NCBI RefSeq assembly: GCF_013378445.1
Contig: NZ_JABXYK010000012.1
Location: forward strand, 62,001-126,000
DNA from: Mycoplana rhizolycopersici
GTDB lineage: Bacteria; Pseudomonadota; Alphaproteobacteria; Rhizobiales; Rhizobiaceae
Reading direction: 5' to 3'
DNA: 64,000 bases
Shown: positions 2,816 through 58,670 of the stretch, piece after piece
How the letters are laid out: the number at the start of each line of letters is the position of its first letter
Numbering within the stretch: position 1 is the first letter of the stretch
Program-made: the position numbers and the translations under genes
Notes under the pieces: generated by a model
The model's input: the letters and a program-made list of their open reading frames with translations, nothing else
Told to the model about the DNA's origin: nothing
The model's database searches: none

Positions 2816-4474
2816 ATGATCTCGACGGCCGACCCGACCGATCCCTGGCTGCGCAAGGCGCAGACCTTTCCGCGCCTCAACGAGGACATGATCGCGCGCC
2901 TCGCCGCCTACGGCACCGAGGAGACGGCCCCGGAGCGGCAGCTTCTCTTCCGGCGTGGAGACCGCGCCGTCGACTTCTTCGTGGTGATCGAGGGGGAGGT
3001 GAGGGTCTATGCCGACCATCCGCTCGTCGGGCGCCGGCATCTCTTCAACTACGGCGCGGGCCAGTTCAGCGGCGAACAGATCCTGTTCACCGATCGACCG
3101 GCGCTTCTGTCGGGGGAGTGCAGTGCGGGTACGCGCTTCATCCGCGTCCCCCACCGCCGTTTCCGGGCGATGCTGACAGGCGAAAGCGATATCGGCGAGA
3201 CGATCATGCGTGCTTTCGTGCTGCGCCGGGCCGGTCTGCTCAGGCATCAGAGCGGCGGCGTGTTGCTGATCGGCCATCGCGACAGCGCGGAGTTGCTGGG
3301 CCTGGAACGGTTCCTCATCCGCAATCTCTATCCGGCGGAAGTCCTCGATGCCACGGATCGGGAGCGCGCTACCGCGGTTCTTGGGCCACTGGACATTACT
3401 GAAGAGGATCTGCCGGTCGCAGTCACGCAGGATCGTGAGGCGATCAAGGGCGCCACCAATGCGGTTCTCGCCGATCGGCTGGGCCTGTTCGAGCCGCCGC
3501 AGGCGGATACGGTTCACGATGTCGCCATCGTCGGCGGTGGACCGGCCGGGCTGGCGGCAGCGGTCTATGCCGCCTCGGAAGGATTGAAGACGGTCGTCAT
3601 CGAGACCATGGCGCCGGGCGGTCAGGCGGGGACCTCCTCCCGGATCGAGAACTACCTGGGATTTCCCACTGGCATTTCGGGCCAGGCGCTCGCCGGGCGG
3701 GCGCACATGCAGGCGCAGAAGTTCGGCGCCAGGATCTGCGTGTCGCGGAGCGTCGAGGCGCTCGACTGCGATATAGCACCTTACGGACTTGCGCTCAGCG
3801 ACGGGCGAACGATCAGGGCGTGGTCGGTGGTGATTTCCAGCGGCGCCCGTTATCGCAAGCTCGACCTGCCGGAGTACGATCGCTTCGAAGGGCACGGGAT
3901 CCACTACGCGGCAACGGCGCTCGAGGCCGATCTTTGCGTTCAACAGCCGGTCTTCGTGGTCGGCGGCGGCAATTCCGCAGGCCAGGCCGCAGTGTTCCTC
4001 GCGCAGAGCGCGCAGCACGTCCACATGCTGGTGCGCGGCGATATCGCCGCCACCATGTCGGACTATCTCGTCCAGCGGATCAGGAACTCGCATCACATCA
4101 CGCTGCACGAACATAGCGAGGTGACCGCGCTTCAAGGCGAAAACAGACTTGAACGCGTCAGCTGGATCGACCGAAAGGCGGGCGTGGAAAATCTGACGCC
4201 TGCGTCCCACCTCTTCGTCATGATCGGCGCGTCGCCGAACACGGGGTGGCTGAAAGGCTGCGTCGCGCTGGACCGCAGCGGCTTCGTGCAGACCGGACCC
4301 GGCTTTGCCCCGGCGGAGGAGACGAGCCCGCATGCGACGAGCCGCGCCGGCATCTTTGCGGTCGGCGATGTCCGGTCGGAGTCGGTCAAGCGCGTCGCTT
4401 CGGCGGTGGGGGAGGGCGCCGTCGTCGTCGCTGCGATCCACCGGTATCTCGCGGGGCATCGCCCGTTGAGATGA
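2816..4474 (+). CDS. Cyclic nucleotide-binding domain fused to thioredoxin reductase-like FAD oxidoreductase (no CxxC)
   Basis: The start at 2816 is chosen because AAGGA lies 7 bases upstream; an in-frame ATG at 2786 lies inside the preceding gene. Three parts are visible in 552 residues: a cyclic-nucleotide-binding fold (about 25-130, with LLFRRGDRAVDFFVV and SGEQILF), a middle domain resembling a thioredoxin fold without cysteines (about 140-215), and a thioredoxin-reductase-like FAD/NAD(P) module with GGGPAGLAA (about 236), a second dinucleotide motif GGGNSAGQ (about 382) and AVGD (about 516). Where thioredoxin reductases carry the redox CATC pair this protein reads YAATALEA (about 365), so it cannot use the classical disulfide relay. 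It is probably co-transcribed with the exporter pair; substrate and ligand are unknown. Confidence 0.85.
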   Translation: MISTADPTDPWLRKAQTFPRLNEDMIARLAAYGTEETAPERQLLFRRGDRAVDFFVVIEGEVRVYADHPLVGRRHLFNYGAGQFSGEQILFTDRPALLSGECSAGTRFIRVPHRRFRAMLTGESDIGETIMRAFVLRRAGLLRHQSGGVLLIGHRDSAELLGLERFLIRNLYPAEVLDATDRERATAVLGPLDITEEDLPVAVTQDREAIKGATNAVLADRLGLFEPPQADTVHDVAIVGGGPAGLAAAVYAASEGLKTVVIETMAPGGQAGTSSRIENYLGFPTGISGQALAGRAHMQAQKFGARICVSRSVEALDCDIAPYGLALSDGRTIRAWSVVISSGARYRKLDLPEYDRFEGHGIHYAATALEADLCVQQPVFVVGGGNSAGQAAVFLAQSAQHVHMLVRGDIAATMSDYLVQRIRNSHHITLHEHSEVTALQGENRLERVSWIDRKAGVENLTPASHLFVMIGASPNTGWLKGCVALDRSGFVQTGPGFAPAEETSPHATSRAGIFAVGDVRSESVKRVASAVGEGAVVVAAIHRYLAGHRPLR

Positions 4475-9756: not shown

Positions 9757-10074
9757 TCAGTAGTACCGGGGAATCGGACCGTTCTGCGGCGTCTGGTCAG
9801 GCAGGTCGACGAACGCCTCGTCGACGTAGCACCAGCCCCAGCCTTCCGGCGGATCGTAGCCCTCGATGATCTGATGGCCGGTTTCGCGGAAATGCGCGGT
9901 CGCGTGCCGGCCGATCGACTGGTCGCAGCATCCGACATGCCCGCAGATGCGGCAGAGCCTCAAATGAAACCACTCGAGTCCTTCTCCCAGGCATTCCTCA
10001 CATCCGAGCGTCTTCGGCCCGACGCGCCGGACCAGCCTGATATGAGAGCAATTGGCCATGGCCTGATCCGTCAT
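9757..10074 (-). CDS. UBP-type zinc finger protein
   Basis: This 105-residue protein is essentially one ZnF-UBP domain. The full set of candidate zinc ligands is present: C9 and H11 (NCSHI), C25 and C28 (CEEC), C41 and C44 (CRIC), C49, H57, H61 and H67. After the finger comes [13 protein letters not shown], at the position where eukaryotic domains of this family contact the ubiquitin C-terminus. Bacteria lack ubiquitin, and the ligand of bacterial members is not established. Its start codon overlaps the stop of the upstream receiver protein by ATGA (10071-10074), so the two are translationally coupled. poxB begins 131 bases downstream on the same strand. Confidence 0.85.
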
Positions 10075-10436
10075 TTGCTTGCGATTGCGTCTTCGACGCA
10101 GGTGGCGAGCGCCTCGGCCTGGAAGGGCTTCTGCAGGACGCAGACCTCCGGTCCGACCTGCGCGCGCACCGCCTTTCCCGATGACGCGGTGATGAAGACG
10201 AACGGCGTCGTGCATTGCCGCTCGCGCAGCATGGTGAACAGGTCGATGCCGCTCATGCCGTCCATCTGAACATCGGAGACGATGCAGGAACAGGTAGACA
10301 CGCATTCGGAGTCCAGGAACTCCTCCGCCGAAACGAAGGCCCTTACCGAAAAGCCAAGCGATCTGAGAAGGCTGCTGGTCGCCCGACGAACGGCTTCTTC
10401 GTCGTCGATCACCGAAACGATGTGGGGAGTTTCCAC
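10071..10436 (-). CDS. Single-domain response regulator (receiver only, FixJ/CheY-like)
   Basis: This 121-residue protein is a bare receiver: acidic pair D11/D12, phospho-acceptor D55 (CIVSDVQMDG), T83 (FITAS) and K103 (LQKPF). It has no output domain, so it must act through a partner protein or as a phosphate sink. GTG at 10436 is the best start because the fold begins at once; it has only a weak ribosome site. The stop overlaps the start of the UBP-finger gene, which makes that protein a plausible output partner. No histidine kinase is encoded in the window. A promoter-like GTATAATT lies about 77 bases upstream. Confidence 0.85.
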   Translation of the reverse strand: METPHIVSVIDDEEAVRRATSSLLRSLGFSVRAFVSAEEFLDSECVSTCSCIVSDVQMDGMSGIDLFTMLRERQCTTPFVFITASSGKAVRAQVGPEVCVLQKPFQAEALATCVEDAIASK

Positions 10437-10512: not shown

Positions 10513-10529
10513 AATTATACAGGGGTTTA
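10513..10529 (-). promoter_or_regulatory. Candidate promoter -10 element for receiver/UBP-finger operon
   Basis: On the minus strand this reads TAAACCCCTGTATAATT. The TATAAT box is perfect and lies about 77 bases upstream of the receiver start codon. No TTGACA-like -35 is seen at 17 bases, so an extended -10, an activator or another sigma factor is likely. Fifteen of 17 bases match the element at 13948-13964 in front of the candidate sRNA. Confidence 0.5.
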
Positions 10530-10657: not shown

Positions 10658-11281
10658 TCACGCGGTCGATCTGGACAGGCCCAGCACTTCCGCCATCCGC
10701 ACCAGGTCGGCAAATGTTTTGGCCATCATCTTGCGGCTGATTTTGCCACGGTGAATCTTGACGGTGATCTCGCTCAGGCCGAGCTCCCCGGCGATCTGCT
10801 TGTTCATCAGGCCGGCTGTCGCCATGGCCATGATCTGCTGCTCGCGCGGGGAAAGCGTCTGGTAGCGGGTGCGCAGCTCAATCTCCGTCCGGTCCGAGCC
10901 GCGGACGAGCCTGTCCTTCTCCACTGCGGCTGCGACGGCGTCCAGGATGTCCTGATCGCGGAAGGGCTTGGCCAGAAAGTCGGCAGCGCCCGCCTTCATC
11001 GCCCTGACCGTCATCGGAATGTCGCCATGGCCGGTCACGAATATCACGGGCGTGTTCACGCCCCGCTCGGCGAGCTTCTGGTGAAAGTCCAGCCCGCTGG
11101 TGAAGGGCAGCCGCACGTCCAGGATCAGGCAGTTCGCATCCGGCAGGCGAGCATCGTCATAGAGTTCCTGCGCCGTTGCGAACGTCTTGACGCTGTATCC
11201 GACGGACCGGAGCAGGGTGTCCAAGGAATGGCGAATGAGCGGCTCGTCATCAACGACCAGGACAAGGGGGCTTTCCGACAT
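10658..11281 (-). CDS. FixJ-type two-component response regulator (receiver + LuxR helix-turn-helix)
   Basis: The 207 residues start MSESPLVLVVDDEPL. The receiver has D11/D12, phospho-acceptor D55 (CLILDVRLP), T83 (FVTGHGD) and K105 (FLAKPF). A LuxR/FixJ-type helix-turn-helix fills about 140-205 (LSPREQQIM, MNKQIAGELGLSEITVKIHR). A longer in-frame start at 11374 exists but its extra residues do not resemble a receiver. It is an orphan regulator: no kinase is nearby. It is transcribed towards the second receiver, the zinc finger and poxB-cydAB, which are natural candidate targets, and it diverges from a short AraC gene. Confidence 0.88.
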   Translation of the reverse strand: MSESPLVLVVDDEPLIRHSLDTLLRSVGYSVKTFATAQELYDDARLPDANCLILDVRLPFTSGLDFHQKLAERGVNTPVIFVTGHGDIPMTVRAMKAGAADFLAKPFRDQDILDAVAAAVEKDRLVRGSDRTEIELRTRYQTLSPREQQIMAMATAGLMNKQIAGELGLSEITVKIHRGKISRKMMAKTFADLVRMAEVLGLSRSTA

Positions 11282-11372: not shown

Positions 11373-11380
11373 AATTATAC
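11373..11380 (-). promoter_or_regulatory. Candidate -10 element of the FixJ-type regulator gene
   Basis: GTATAATT on the minus strand lies about 92 bases before the regulator's start codon. It overlaps a perfect 12-base palindrome ATACCCGGGTAT at 11377-11388, a possible regulator site. A second inverted repeat, CCGCTA (11392-11397) with TAGCGG (11409-11414), lies just upstream, between this gene and the divergent AraC gene. Confidence 0.45.
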
Positions 11381-11504
11381 CCGGGTATGCTCCGCTAACA
11401 CTCATGTGTAGCGGAAGTCGATCACAGTACGATTTCGCATCATGCGGACCGATTTCATTATGGAGGCACAAAATCGCACTGCCATCTTTTCAAGGAGATC
11501 GAAG

Positions 11505-12277: not shown

Positions 12278-13393
12278 ATGACCGGAACGAAGCTTTTTTC
12301 GCCCATCCAGATGGGAAACCTGCGGCTCGACAACCGCATCGTCATCGCCCCCATGTGCCAGTATTCGGCGGAAGATGGCAGGATGACCGACTGGCACCTG
12401 ATGCACCTCGGCATGCTGGCAAATTCCGGTGCGGGCGTGCTCACGATCGAGGCGACGGCGGTCTCCCCTGAGGGCCGCATCTCCTATGGCGACGTCGGGC
12501 TCTACTCCGACGCATGCGAAGCGGCGATGGAGCGCGTCCTTGCCGGCGTCCGCCGGTGGTCGAACATGCCGATCGCGATCCAGCTTGGCCATGCCGGGCG
12601 CAAGGCCTCGAGCGAGGTGCCATGGCTTGGCGGCGGGCAGATCGCGCCGTCATCGACCAACGGATGGAAAACGGTCGCGCCCGCCGGGGTTCCGTTCCGC
12701 ACGATCTACGACCCGCCCGTCGCGCTCGACGACAGCGGTATGAACCGCATACGCAAGGCGTTCGCCGACGCCGCCCGACGCGCGGCGAAACTGGGGATCG
12801 ACGCGGTGCAGATTCACGGCGCACACGGATACCTGCTGCACCAGTTTCTTTCGCCGCTGTCGAACACGCGGGCCGACGCCTATGGCGGCTCGCTCGAAAA
12901 CCGCATGCGTTTTCCGCTGGAGGTTTTCGAGGCCGTGCGCGAAGCCTTTCCGGCGGAGCGTCCCGTCACGATGCGGCTTTCGGCCACCGACTGGGTTGCC
13001 GGAGGCTGGGACGTCGATCAGTCCATCGCGTTTGCCCAGGAGCTCGAACGCCGGGGTTGCAGCGCTATCCACGTGTCGAGCGGAGGGCTCTCCGAGCACC
13101 AGAAGATCGCGCTCGGGCCGAACTATCAGGTGCCGTTCGCCCGCGCGATCAAGGCGGCGACCAGCCTTCCGGTTATCGCCGTCGGCCTTATCACCGAATT
13201 CGAGCAGGCCGAGGCGATCCTCGTCACAGGCGATGCGGACATGATCGCCATCGCACGCGCGATCCTCTACGATCCCCGCTGGCCCTGGCATGCGGCCGCG
13301 CATTTCGGCGAGACGGTGCGGGCTGCCGACCAGTATCTTCGCTGCCAGCCCCGCCAGTTCAAGCACCTGTTCGAACACGTTTCGGCCGTCTGA
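12278..13393 (+). CDS. NADH:flavin oxidoreductase, old yellow enzyme family (YqjM/NemA-like)
   Basis: The ATG at 12278 has a purine-rich site (AAGGAGGGAAGGA) just upstream. The 371-residue TIM barrel shows FMN and substrate motifs of the OYE family: APMCQYSAEDGRMTDWHLMH near the N-terminus with the YqjM-type cysteine, the pocket HGAHGYLLHQFLSPLSNTR with its paired histidines, and YGGSLENRMRF. The C-terminal phosphate-binding region is VGLITEFEQAEAIL. Such enzymes reduce activated C=C bonds of enals, enones or nitro compounds using NAD(P)H, often in electrophile stress. It is a single gene, followed by a hairpin at 13422-13447. Confidence 0.92.
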   Translation: MTGTKLFSPIQMGNLRLDNRIVIAPMCQYSAEDGRMTDWHLMHLGMLANSGAGVLTIEATAVSPEGRISYGDVGLYSDACEAAMERVLAGVRRWSNMPIAIQLGHAGRKASSEVPWLGGGQIAPSSTNGWKTVAPAGVPFRTIYDPPVALDDSGMNRIRKAFADAARRAAKLGIDAVQIHGAHGYLLHQFLSPLSNTRADAYGGSLENRMRFPLEVFEAVREAFPAERPVTMRLSATDWVAGGWDVDQSIAFAQELERRGCSAIHVSSGGLSEHQKIALGPNYQVPFARAIKAATSLPVIAVGLITEFEQAEAILVTGDADMIAIARAILYDPRWPWHAAAHFGETVRAADQYLRCQPRQFKHLFEHVSAV

Positions 13394-13421
13394 CCGCCCC
13401 GGCCGCGTTTGCGGGGCGCAT

Positions 13422-13447
13422 CCCTTTCGATCCATGAGTCGAAAGGG
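13422..13447 (+). terminator. Hairpin after the OYE gene
   Basis: CCCTTTCGA (13422-13430) and TCGAAAGGG (13439-13447) form a perfect 9-bp stem with an 8-base loop, 28 bases after the OYE stop. No T run follows, so termination may be weak or factor-dependent. Confidence 0.4.
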
Positions 13448-13458
13448 CGCGCCGTGCT

Positions 13459-13704
13459 GTGCAGGGCAGTGCCGACAGGATGGCAGGCAATACCGTTGCC
13501 CTCGTCGGGGACGCAGCGTTCGTCGTGCGGCCCCACACGGCGATGGGCGCCTCGAAGGCTGCGGGTGACGCAATGGCGCTTGGTGACAGCCTCTCCCGTT
13601 CGCAATCGGTCGACGAAGCCTTGCGGCGTTATGCTGCGTTGCGCATGCCCGTCGGGGAAGACATTTCAAGCTACGGTCGCCGACTGGGCGCATCCGCGCT
13701 CTGA
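13459..13704 (+). pseudogene. C-terminal remnant of an FAD-dependent monooxygenase
   Basis: The 81 residues contain VALVGDAAFVVRPHTAMGAS and KAAGDAMALGDSL, the GD motif and following helix that lie near the C-terminus of p-hydroxybenzoate-hydroxylase-type FAD monooxygenases (normally about 370-400 residues). Everything upstream, including the N-terminal GxGxxG FAD fold, is missing; the sequence before it is the OYE intergenic hairpin. The only start is a GTG without a ribosome site. It is best read as a deletion remnant rather than a functional small gene. Confidence 0.7.
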
Positions 13705-13792
13705 CGCCTGCTTCGGGAGGGAAGACACGTGCTCTCCTCCCGTTCGCGTTCGATGGCATGGAAACTGCCACTTGAGACCGGATGCCGACGCG

Positions 13793-13942
13793 AAAGACCG
13801 CCCGGCGGCGGAGCCGGGCGGTCTGGCGGAGTTTGGGTCCGCGAGCTTTGGACGAGGGGGGGATCCGAAGCTCGGTAGCGGGGAGGGGAGTGCGCTACCG
13901 CCTCTTTTGAGGCTGAAACGAGATTACTATGGCGCGCGCGGC
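13793..13942 (-). ncRNA. Candidate small RNA with C-rich (anti-Shine-Dalgarno-like) hairpin loops
   Basis: A perfect -10 box (13948-13955) faces this stretch on the minus strand, which has no gene. The RNA would fold into four almost contiguous hairpins: GCCTC/GAGGC with an AAAA loop (13913-13900); CGGTAGCG/CGCTACCG, 8 bp perfect, loop CACTCCCCTCCC (13900-13873); GAGCTT/AAGCTC extended by GGA/TCC, loop TCCCCCCCTCG (13873-13843); and an 11-bp perfect terminator-like stem (13823-13796) followed by TTTCGCG. Two hairpins exposing C-rich loops followed by a GC terminator resemble, from memory, the rhizobial alpha-r14/suhB (NfeR1) and cuckoo sRNAs, whose loops mimic anti-Shine-Dalgarno sequence. 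The match to a named family is inference. Confidence 0.5.
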
Positions 13943-13947
13943 TTTGA

Positions 13948-13964
13948 AATTATACCGGGGTTTG
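13948..13964 (-). promoter_or_regulatory. Candidate promoter element of the small RNA
   Basis: On the minus strand this reads CAAACCCCGGTATAATT, matching 15 of 17 bases of the element at 10513-10529 upstream of the receiver/UBP-finger genes. It points into a stretch with no protein gene on that strand, which is why a small RNA is proposed. CCGGG/CCCGG repeats lie in the spacer just upstream of the -10. Confidence 0.5.
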
Positions 13965-14001
13965 CCCGGCATCATACATGCGGATGGGGTGATGGGGCGG
14001 A

Positions 14002-14460
14002 TCATGCAAGCCGGGCTATCACGCCAACCGCGAGGATCGCAGCCCCGGCGAAATCCGTCACCATGGCGAAGCTTTCCTTTGCGCTCCGGTCGCGATTCAT
14101 GGCGTGCTTGACCCCTGCCAGCGCCAGATAGAGACCGCCGGCCAGCCCCGCCGGAGCCACCCAGCCGGGCATCAGCAGGCTCAGCGTGCCGATCAGCCCC
14201 ATCGCCAGGTTGCCGCAGCCGATCTCGGTGACCAGCTTTTCGGCGTCCGGGTCGTCGATCCCGAAAATGCTCTTGGCGGTGAAGGACGGCTGAAGCACCT
14301 GCTTGAAGCCGGCAAGCAGCAGCCTGATGCCCGCGGCCCAGAACACGAACCACTTGCCCACCAGAAACAGCAGGCCGGCGTCCGATCCCGCGATCCATTC
14401 CGCAAGGATGGACAGGACCGGAAGAACGAACATCAATGCGGCGACAGCGACGAAATACAT
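14002..14460 (-). CDS. Small integral membrane protein of unknown function (possibly DUF6790-like)
   Basis: The protein from the ATG at 14460 has 152 residues and begins with a hydrophobic segment (MYFVAVAALMFVLPVLSILA). Three further hydrophobic stretches are visible at about 28-52, 85-115 and 130-150. A conserved-looking motif EIGCGNLAMGLIGTLSLL precedes the third. It reminds me of the DUF6790 membrane family but I cannot confirm this. No partner gene is evident: the preceding gene on this strand ends about 190 bases away behind a strong terminator. No function is assigned. Confidence 0.65.
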   Translation of the reverse strand: MYFVAVAALMFVLPVLSILAEWIAGSDAGLLFLVGKWFVFWAAGIRLLLAGFKQVLQPSFTAKSIFGIDDPDAEKLVTEIGCGNLAMGLIGTLSLLMPGWVAPAGLAGGLYLALAGVKHAMNRDRSAKESFAMVTDFAGAAILAVGVIARLA

Positions 14461-14598
14461 CGGAAAACTCCGCGTCAGGGACAGCGGTTTCCATCCTAGA
14501 TTGCCGCGTCGGCGAAGCCAATGGGCGGCGGCGCGCGCCGGGGTTCGTCCATTCGGTGGATCGCTGGTGTAGCATTGCCGCCATGCCGGCAAAAAAAG

Positions 14599-14622
14599 AA
14601 CCCGCGGCGACTGCCGCGGGTT
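14599..14622 (-). terminator. Intrinsic terminator of the carboxynorspermidine dehydrogenase operon
   Basis: AACCCGCGGC (14599-14608) and GCCGCGGGTT (14613-14622) form a perfect 10-bp stem with loop GACT. On the minus strand it is followed by TTCTTTTTTT. It lies 26 bases after the dehydrogenase stop codon. Confidence 0.9.
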
Positions 14623-14647
14623 TGATCGTTCGTTTCGGAGCCGTTGC

Positions 14648-15886
14648 CTATTCGAACAGCGGGCGCTCCTGGCCATTCTCGCGGATCCAGGTCGACAGGC
14701 CGATCTTGGCGAGCACGGAGAGGAAGGGCTTGGGCGCCAGTTCCTCGACGTTCGCCATATGCTTGACGTCCCACTCGCCGGTCGCGACCAGCATGGCGGC
14801 GGCGACCGGGGGAACGCCGGCAGTGTAGGAGATGCCCTGGGAGCCGACCTCTTCGTAGGCTTCCTTGTGGTCCGCCACGTTGTAGATGAAGACCTCGCGT
14901 TCCTTGCCGTCCTTGGTGCCCTTGACGAAGTCGCCGATGCAGGTCTTGCCGGTATATTCCGGTGCGAGCGAGGCCGGGTCGGGCAGGCAGGCCTTGACGA
15001 CCTTGAGCGGCACGACTTCGGAACCGTCGGCGAGCTTGACCGGCTGCTCGGAGAGAAGGCCGATCGACTTCAGGACGGTGAAGACGTTGATGTAGTGGTC
15101 GCCGAAGCCCATCCAGAAGCGCACGTCGGCGCCGTCCATGTTCTTGGCCAGCGAATGCACTTCGTCATGGCCGCAGAGATAGGCGCGGCGGGTGCCGACG
15201 ACCGGCAGGTCGTAGTCCTTGCCGATCTCGAACATCTTGTTGACGTTCCATTCGCCGTTCTGCCACGAATAGACCACGCCGGTGAATTCGCGGAAGTTGA
15301 TTTCCGGGTCGAAGTTGGTGGCGAAGTACTTGCCATGGCTGCCGGCGTTGATGTCGACGATGTCGACGTCCGTCACCTTGTCGAGGTACTCGTCCTTGGC
15401 GAGCCTGGCGTAGGCGTTGACGACGCCCGGGTCGAAGCCGGCGCCGAGGATGGCGGTGATGCCCTTCTCCCGGCATTCGTCAGCGCGCTTCCATTCGTAG
15501 TTTCCGTACCACGGCGGGGTCTCGCAGATCTTGTTCGGCTCTTCGTGGATAGCCGTGTCGATATAGGCGACGCCGGTATCCATGCAGGCGCGCAGCACCG
15601 ACATGTTGAGGAAGGCGGTGCCGACATTGATGACGATCTCGCAGCCCGTCTTCTTGATGAGCGCCTTCGTGGCTTCGATATCGAGGGCATCCAGGGCATG
15701 GGCTTCGAGGGCGCCCGGCTGCTTCATCGCCTTCTTTTCATGGACGGAGGCGATGATCGCATCGCACTTGGACTTCGTGCGCGAAGCGATGTGAATGTCG
15801 CCGAGGACGTCATTGTTCTGAGCGCACTTGTGCGCCACCACCTGGGCAACGCCACCCGCGCCGATGATGAGAACGTTCTTTTTCAT
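14648..15886 (-). CDS. Carboxynorspermidine (carboxyspermidine) dehydrogenase
   Basis: This 412-residue saccharopine-dehydrogenase-like protein starts MKKNVLIIGAGGVAQVVAHK, a Rossmann NAD(P) motif. It continues with VINVGTAFLNMSVLRACMDT, AILGAGFDPGVVNAYARLA and DINAGSHGKYFATNFDPEIN, blocks typical of the bacterial polyamine enzyme. It condenses aspartate semialdehyde with a diamine (diaminopropane or putrescine) and reduces the product to carboxynorspermidine or carboxyspermidine. It follows the matching decarboxylase by 53 bases on the same strand and ends at a clear intrinsic terminator. AAGGAG lies about 12 bases upstream of the start. The sequence does not decide between the two diamine substrates; in rhizobia the route supplies spermidine. 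Confidence 0.93.
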   Translation of the reverse strand: MKKNVLIIGAGGVAQVVAHKCAQNNDVLGDIHIASRTKSKCDAIIASVHEKKAMKQPGALEAHALDALDIEATKALIKKTGCEIVINVGTAFLNMSVLRACMDTGVAYIDTAIHEEPNKICETPPWYGNYEWKRADECREKGITAILGAGFDPGVVNAYARLAKDEYLDKVTDVDIVDINAGSHGKYFATNFDPEINFREFTGVVYSWQNGEWNVNKMFEIGKDYDLPVVGTRRAYLCGHDEVHSLAKNMDGADVRFWMGFGDHYINVFTVLKSIGLLSEQPVKLADGSEVVPLKVVKACLPDPASLAPEYTGKTCIGDFVKGTKDGKEREVFIYNVADHKEAYEEVGSQGISYTAGVPPVAAAMLVATGEWDVKHMANVEELAPKPFLSVLAKIGLSTWIRENGQERPLFE

Positions 15887-58505: not shown

Positions 58506-58670
58506 TTTTTAGCGATGGTCATTGTGGTGTCAGGAGGCGTGGCCGTGTCAACCGGACACGACGGGCATGGAGAACACGGGAATTTTTCCGGTTTCTTCCT
58601 GTGGCCAACGAAACGGCAGTCGAGCTTCTTACCCGTTCGGCCTGCGCCTTCTGCTTCCCGTAGACTGAAA

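Follow-up and report, generated by a model that had tools for sequence, protein, structure and literature searches.

The described systems closest to the RNA reported here are the ar14/cuckoo small RNAs (sRNAs). According to the available sections of the papers describing them, an identical CCUCCUCCC lies in the loop of each of their three hairpins (PMC10746234; PMC3927594) and their RpoD promoter reads CTTAGAC-N17-CTATAT (PMC10746234). AbcR (ar15) and MmgR (ar8) are rhizobial trans-acting sRNAs with CU-rich anti-Shine-Dalgarno (anti-SD) stretches, and in Sinorhizobium meliloti both NfeR1 and AbcR repress mRNAs by pairing with SD regions (PMC7143759, consulted in part). With regard to transcriptional control, the sequence recognised by StyR-like proteins is reported to be ATAAAC-N4-GTTTAT, and the site from which StyR activates lies about 40 bp upstream of the start; the consulted part of PMC5874301 gives Lys175, Val176 and His179 as contact residues and cites the StyR structure. 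Here, we describe a conserved structured RNA family outside Rfam, which may be under the control of a regulator of the FixJ/StyR type.

The predicted sRNA, about 122 nt long, occupies positions 13793-13914 on the minus strand of the window, that is, the whole 64-kb stretch of DNA analysed. From 13914 to 13793 it folds into four hairpins and a terminator stem: hairpin 0 (13900-13913, GCCUC-AAAA-GAGGC; helix 1 of the covariation alignment), hairpin 1 (13874-13899, loop CACUCCCCUCCC; helix 2), hairpin 2 (13843-13873, loop UCCCCCCCUCG; helices 3-5), hairpin 3 (13826-13842, GCGGA-CCCAAAC-UCCGC; helix 6) and a terminator stem-loop (13796-13823; helix 7) followed by UUUCG, with a short U tract at 13795-13793. 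The stem GGTAGCG/CGCTACC of hairpin 1 (13899-13893 with 13880-13874) encloses CACTCCCCTCCC, the stem GAGCTTCGGA/TCCAAAGCTC of hairpin 2 (13873-13864 with 13852-13843, one mismatch) encloses TCCCCCCCTCG, and an 11-bp GC stem (13823-13813 with 13806-13796) closes the unit. A terminator scan of 13300-14700 did not flag the 13823-13796 stem, after which only UUUCG comes, and flagged 14622-14599 instead.

The minus strand of 13790-13944 folds at -68.4 kcal/mol (z -5.25); 200 dinucleotide shuffles averaged -47.3 +/- 4.0, and none was as stable. The plus strand is also above chance, although more weakly (z -3.58), since inverted repeats fold on both strands. An earlier sequence-only reading had proposed a structured minus-strand RNA in this gene-free stretch, and what it observed holds for both the fold and the sequence itself. 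Its stems and the 11-bp GC stem stand, and we add to the hairpins that it located the 5' hairpin at 13913-13900 and the hairpin at 13842-13826. The stem that it placed at 13873-13900 keeps seven pairs and loses the eighth, as C13900 is also needed by hairpin 0. The sRNA stretch is single copy in its own genome. At about 13480-13705 on the plus strand, the window holds an apparent remnant of a FAD-dependent monooxygenase-type gene; R. subbaraonis has an open frame of 410 aa at the same place (L003, 180-1412).

Covariance models and BLAST revealed homologues in Mycoplana, Ferirhizobium, Rhizobium (R. etli, R. leguminosarum) and Sinorhizobium. The DNA search gave copies in three of the seven genomes of the genus; L005-L007, from the first such search, were terminator or coding matches by eye. 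With a covariance model built from three sequences (R1), 18 of the 297 genomes of the family gave matches at E up to 0.01, only the stronger of which were accepted, and a model built from eight (R2) matched 20 of 394 at E up to 0.001, scoring at least 38 bits in 13 of the 20, including five of the seven genomes of the genus. Across the order, R2 at E up to 1e-4 had matches in 7 of 297 genomes, of which only those in the own genome and in G157 are convincing. A pattern scan of GTDB genomes returned eight records, six of them confirmed by R1 (among which Rhizobium subbaraonis JC85, Mycoplana azooxidifex, Rhizobium sp. GN54, Ferirhizobium litorale and Rhizobium sp. BK399) and two due to chance (L066, L067).

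Plasmid BLAST found 18 records, including R. etli CFN 42 p42f, R. leguminosarum WSM1325 pR132502, S. medicae WSM419 pSMED02 and a S. meliloti plasmid, and R2 matched all 14 of these records that were examined. The p42f copy lies near 599.68-599.82 kb; Table 1 of PMC4167512, a paper available in part, lists ReC entries only, so that a transcript at this place is neither confirmed nor excluded, and the available main text of PMC2881028 does not mention p42f. Four copies of the sRNA were found in G373 and two, in tandem, in F. litorale.

The R1 matches of at most 36.5 bits (L025, L026, L028-L035, L038) and the R2 matches L092-L098 were left out of the alignment, because inspection by eye pointed to terminators, to coding sequence or to other anti-SD RNAs; L093, for example, contains CCTCCTCCC. 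The upstream box described below is not near any of L092-L098. L027/L078 (G124, 33.2 bits), which looks like a divergent ar14, was also set aside, and L107-L109 were checked for the box and had none. L100, L123 and two loci from another family of the order (L105 and L106, in G428 and G503) were kept among the 36 rows used for covariation, though they lack the box. L105 and L106 are similar loci of C-rich-loop hairpins and a terminator, perhaps belonging to a further small RNA family.

Among the 36 distinct aligned matches, both sides changed at 27 of the 32 model pairs, including 6 of 6 in helix 2 (hairpin 1) and 8 of 8 in helices 3-5 (hairpin 2), and standard pairs filled 89.9% of the cells. 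The covariation score was 0.395, compared with 0.157 +/- 0.010 in shuffles, none of 500 reaching the observed value; when partners were slid by one to three columns, pairing fell to 31-52% and covariation to 0.033-0.112. The alignment was fitted to the structure and therefore these figures lean towards it. Had homologues lost the stems and loops, the sequence-only reading would have been in trouble; both are kept.

Upstream of the sRNA lies the box AAACCCCGGTATAATT (13948-13963, minus strand, score 11/13), a probable response-regulator operator. As A[TA]ACC-N3-GTATA-N-TT, it precedes 32 of the 36 matches with a score of 9/13 or better and is lacking in the other four; scores of at least 10 were reached by 31 of the 36, compared with 12 of 1,800 shuffled sequences. 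Box positions 0, 2, 3, 8, 9 and 14 are invariant in the 32 members, part of this invariance arising by construction since the members were picked by box score. The bases further downstream lay outside that choice, after which the spacing was measured: counting from the box, offset 37 is T in 31 members, offset 38 is A in all 32 and offset 42 is T in 28. The motif TANYYT lies at offset 36-37 in 24 of the 32, while no two-base window held more than four in 2,000 shuffle rounds. This TA-N3-T, at a fixed 37 nt from the box, is likely the -10 (TAATCT at 13921-13926, minus strand, in the window), and such a distance places the centre of the box near -43. From the conserved -10, the 5' end of the sRNA is expected near 13914, just before hairpin 0.

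The sequence-only reading had instead taken GTATAATT as the core promoter box. The string is indeed present at 13955-13948, where it forms the right half of our box, but the conservation and spacing seen in the 32 members indicate that it is probably not the -10. An ordinary sigma-70 promoter with TATAAT (13954-13949) as its -10, and no regulator, would explain the perfect string, the conservation of its TATA part and a weak GTTTAG-like stretch 17 nt upstream in several members. Nevertheless, the -35 region is poorly conserved, with none by consensus at the window copy, and many members have TGTAGT or TTTAGT in place of TATAAT. The best-conserved bases, ATACC, fall outside any -10, and the second TA-N3-T at a fixed distance downstream also argues against such a promoter, which we consider unlikely. 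A sigma-70-type consensus scan of 13300-14700 found no promoter, and the box was absent from eight ar14 loci and from four stretches with suhB-type RNAs of the own genome. If read correctly, the promoter of this sRNA cautions against calling a TATAAT-like string the -10 when comparative data are lacking.

The exact pattern AWACCNNNGTATANTT occurs at four sites in the genome (5.6 Mb), each of them on contig C12 (155 kb); the reversed control pattern has no site there. The four sites belong to the sRNA, a FixJ/StyR-type regulator gene, a receiver-only regulator gene and the gap between a PAS kinase gene and ydeP, and all four are present in R. subbaraonis. Across 11 genomes the exact box was found at 18 sites in 6 genomes, compared with 2 control sites; by reading, seven of these are sRNA promoters, seven stand at regulator genes or beside ydeP and four elsewhere. 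Three own sites lie inside the window and are the only ones in it scoring at least 11 of 13. The second copy (11373-11388, minus strand, 12/13) stands 91 nt before the FixJ-type regulator gene, as it does in R. subbaraonis, and the third (10513-10528, minus strand, 11/13) before the receiver-only regulator gene. The fourth is 28 kb from the sRNA and does not share the strand of ydeP, on which an inverted copy has the sequence AAACCCGGGTATGATT. A long inverted repeat, AACTATACCCGGGTTTGCCCCGGCAAACCCGGGTATGATT, bears two facing boxes in the gap between the PAS kinase gene and ydeP (L142, about 3355-3395; G000:C12 near 47.37 kb). Another box, in G373, stands 77 nt before an ORF for a Gly-rich, probably exported protein (L145, 3837-3852, plus strand; G373:C25) and within 2 kb of an sRNA copy.

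Upstream of ydeP, five of 11 rows have a box of their own scoring 10-11/13 at 62-105 nt (R. subbaraonis, F. litorale, G157, BK399 and CC1099), three have the box of the sRNA only and three have none scoring at least 10. The FixJ-type regulator genes of seven loci from other genera or from G001 (L146, L153, L154, L156, L157, L162, L164) have no box of at least 10 upstream, and evidence of conserved autoregulation is therefore confined to the genomes of the window and of R. subbaraonis. That of L165 (G313) has a poor box only, at 214 nt.

The same genes are linked to the sRNA. In flanks of about 1.5 to 10 kb, a YdeP homologue, PAS kinase or FixJ-type regulator was found at 19 of the 32 sRNA loci and none of them at 13; YdeP homologues stand at 11 loci (three as short fragments, one matching in three pieces) and a PAS kinase or FixJ-type regulator at 14. 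YdeP copies number 0-2 per genome in 23 genomes, with none, at the cut-off used, in the sRNA-bearing G002, G006 and G338, and all three kinds of genes are absent from 19.5-kb stretches of Mycoplana G002, G005 and G006. The YdeP protein belongs to the FdhF/YdeP family of NCBIfam (970.8 bits, over the cut-off), and its 1009.6 bits with the model of the E. coli acid-resistance YdeP are below the cut-off of that model (1473).

The proposed regulator of the sRNA (10658-11281, minus strand) has the Pfam domains Response_reg and GerE. Among solved structures, the best relative of this protein is 1yio (E 1.1e-52), an entry named response regulatory protein, which we take to be StyR. Compared with the StyR contact residues, the window protein keeps Lys175 only, Val176 being replaced by Ile and His179 by Gly. 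In the receiver-only response regulator (10071-10436, minus strand; Pfam Response_reg), residues 45, 49 and 51, immediately ahead of the phosphorylated Asp, are cysteines. In Caulobacter FixT, an Fe-S-binding motif of four cysteines (C53, C56, C59, C64) occupies a comparable place (PMC7078487, in the sections seen), and by analogy the window protein may be a FixT-like feedback protein.

What the RNA does is suggested by its loops. In the 32 members these are 62% C and 6% G, compared with 41% and 26% overall, and loops with CUCC, CCUC or CCCC number 76, compared with a mean of 18.6 and a maximum of 25 in 20 rounds of mononucleotide shuffles, an enrichment of about four-fold. Every member has one to four C-rich loops, although those of hairpins 0 and 3 in the window copy are not strongly so. 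All 32 members thus have one of the features expected of RNAs of the anti-SD kind, conserved C/U-rich loops that are unpaired and could pair with SD sequences. These loops look built for covering ribosome-binding sites and, by analogy with the rhizobial RNAs mentioned above, the RNA likely represses several mRNAs through loop-SD pairing. The loops might instead bind a protein or act as an RNA sponge, as those of 6C-type RNAs might. The seven consecutive C of loop 2 recall 6C RNA, and one homologue scored 33.5 bits with the 6C model; that is, however, the best score obtained against a cut-off of 47 bits (RF01066), the sRNA locus itself has no 6C match, and in S. meliloti the nearest relatives that have been studied act by pairing with mRNAs (PMC7143759, in part). 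A protein-binding or sponge role seems rather improbable to us.

The sequence-only reading had placed the RNA among those with C/U-rich anti-SD-like loops, possibly in a family distinct from ar14/suhB, and covariation, loop enrichment and Rfam now agree. Running the Rfam ar14 and suhB models at the locus, as that reading had proposed, gave no match even at E up to 10; the four matches that did appear at this threshold (mir-1268, a part of the CC0196 terminator and CRISPR-DR9 twice) are at chance level. The only Rfam match over its gathering threshold in the window is Atu_At1 (RF02496), a Rhizobiales sRNA, at 58536-58643 on the plus strand (109.4 bits, cut-off 60). Five suhB-model matches were found in the own genome, four of them over the cut-off of 41 bits (RF00519) and all away from the sRNA locus, where that cut-off was not reached; by reading, these RNAs are presumably of the AbcR and MmgR types. 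Neither the locus nor the family is named in the literature found, from which subscription papers are mostly absent.

Could the sRNA be a fast-evolving ar14/cuckoo (NfeR1) member whose loops drifted from CCUCCUCCC? Both share a design in which stems vary and loops are rich in C/U, R2 gives weak cross-scores of up to 24.8 bits on ar14 loci, and the ar14 model gives 23.7 and 27.3 bits on two homologues. On the other hand, none of 11 homologue loci reaches the ar14 cut-off of 58.8 bits (RF02344), the best being the set-aside L078 with 49.5 bits, and the genome has three ar14 copies elsewhere (C6:262030-262774), the eight ar14 loci checked being without the box. The window copy lacks CCUCCUCCC, as the earlier reading had noted, its loops being CACUCCCCUCCC, UCCCCCCCUCG and CCCAAAC. 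By reading, CTTAGAC-N17-CTATAT is absent from 13915-13975 and other members have only a loose TTTAG-like stretch. The family looks like known anti-SD sRNAs, and probably works like them, but falls outside ar14 by score and motif; drift from ar14 is in our view about as improbable as a protein-binding or sponge role. Last, it is highly improbable that the RNA is the structured 3' end of an mRNA from the gene at 14002-14676 (weak DUF6790 match), directly upstream on the same strand, as homologues with box, hairpins and terminator adjoin YdeP, aldehyde dehydrogenase or OYE-type flavoprotein genes.

We therefore slightly favour a free-standing, trans-acting anti-SD sRNA of a family outside Rfam, activated through the box by a FixJ/StyR-type regulator. 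The PAS histidine kinase would feed this regulator, most likely the one at 10658-11281, which would bind A[TA]ACC-N3-GTAT near -43 and activate a weak promoter with the -10 TAATCT. The RNA of about 122 nt would begin just before hairpin 0, its stems presenting the C-rich loops for pairing with GGAGG/GAGGG SD sequences of several mRNAs and so lowering their translation. The same box would also serve to switch on ydeP and the regulator genes.

More tentatively, and with belief and doubt in near balance but doubt ahead, we propose that a FixJ-type two-component system, itself linked to a YdeP-type oxidoreductase, has a multi-loop anti-SD sRNA dedicated to it as an arm for post-transcriptional repression. 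Its regulator would read A[TA]ACC-N3-GTAT at about -43, and one to four copies of the sRNA gene would be inherited along with ydeP and the regulators on Rhizobiaceae chromosomes and plasmids. We found no description of such an operator at this position in the literature, which was seen in part, and what is new about the sRNA is that it likely belongs to a FixJ-type regulon. If true, rhizobia such as R. etli CFN 42 and S. medicae WSM419 own another conserved anti-SD family beside NfeR1 and AbcR, one for which start site, operator and regulator are all predicted. The sRNA and the uncharacterised kinase-regulator-YdeP module would then become directly testable, and would show a route by which a FixJ-type activator also represses.

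Compared with known systems, the sRNA shares with ar14/cuckoo (RF02344; NfeR1, SmelA075, SmelA099) a rhizobial host, a length of about 120 nt, hairpins with variable stems, C/U-rich anti-SD loops and tandem or multiple copies. It differs in having four hairpins plus a terminator, whereas the ar14 copies of the same genome have three hairpins with the third as terminator, as well as in its promoter, its neighbours, its missing core motif and its score below the ar14 cut-off. With the suhB-model RNAs AbcR and MmgR it would share, as far as the sources seen in part describe them, the trans-acting kind with CU-rich anti-SD stretches; sequence and structure differ, and these RNAs have separate copies in the same genome. 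It resembles 6C RNA in having hairpin loops of many C, but the 6C model has two hairpins. Finally, the box resembles the StyR/TodT-type (NarL/FixJ) operators, in the consulted parts of their descriptions, in being an inverted repeat with a 4-nt centre and in its predicted place as an activating site about 40 bp upstream. Its half-sites are A[TA]AC/GTAT instead of AAAC/GTTT and, unlike in StyR/TodT-type systems, the output here would include an sRNA.
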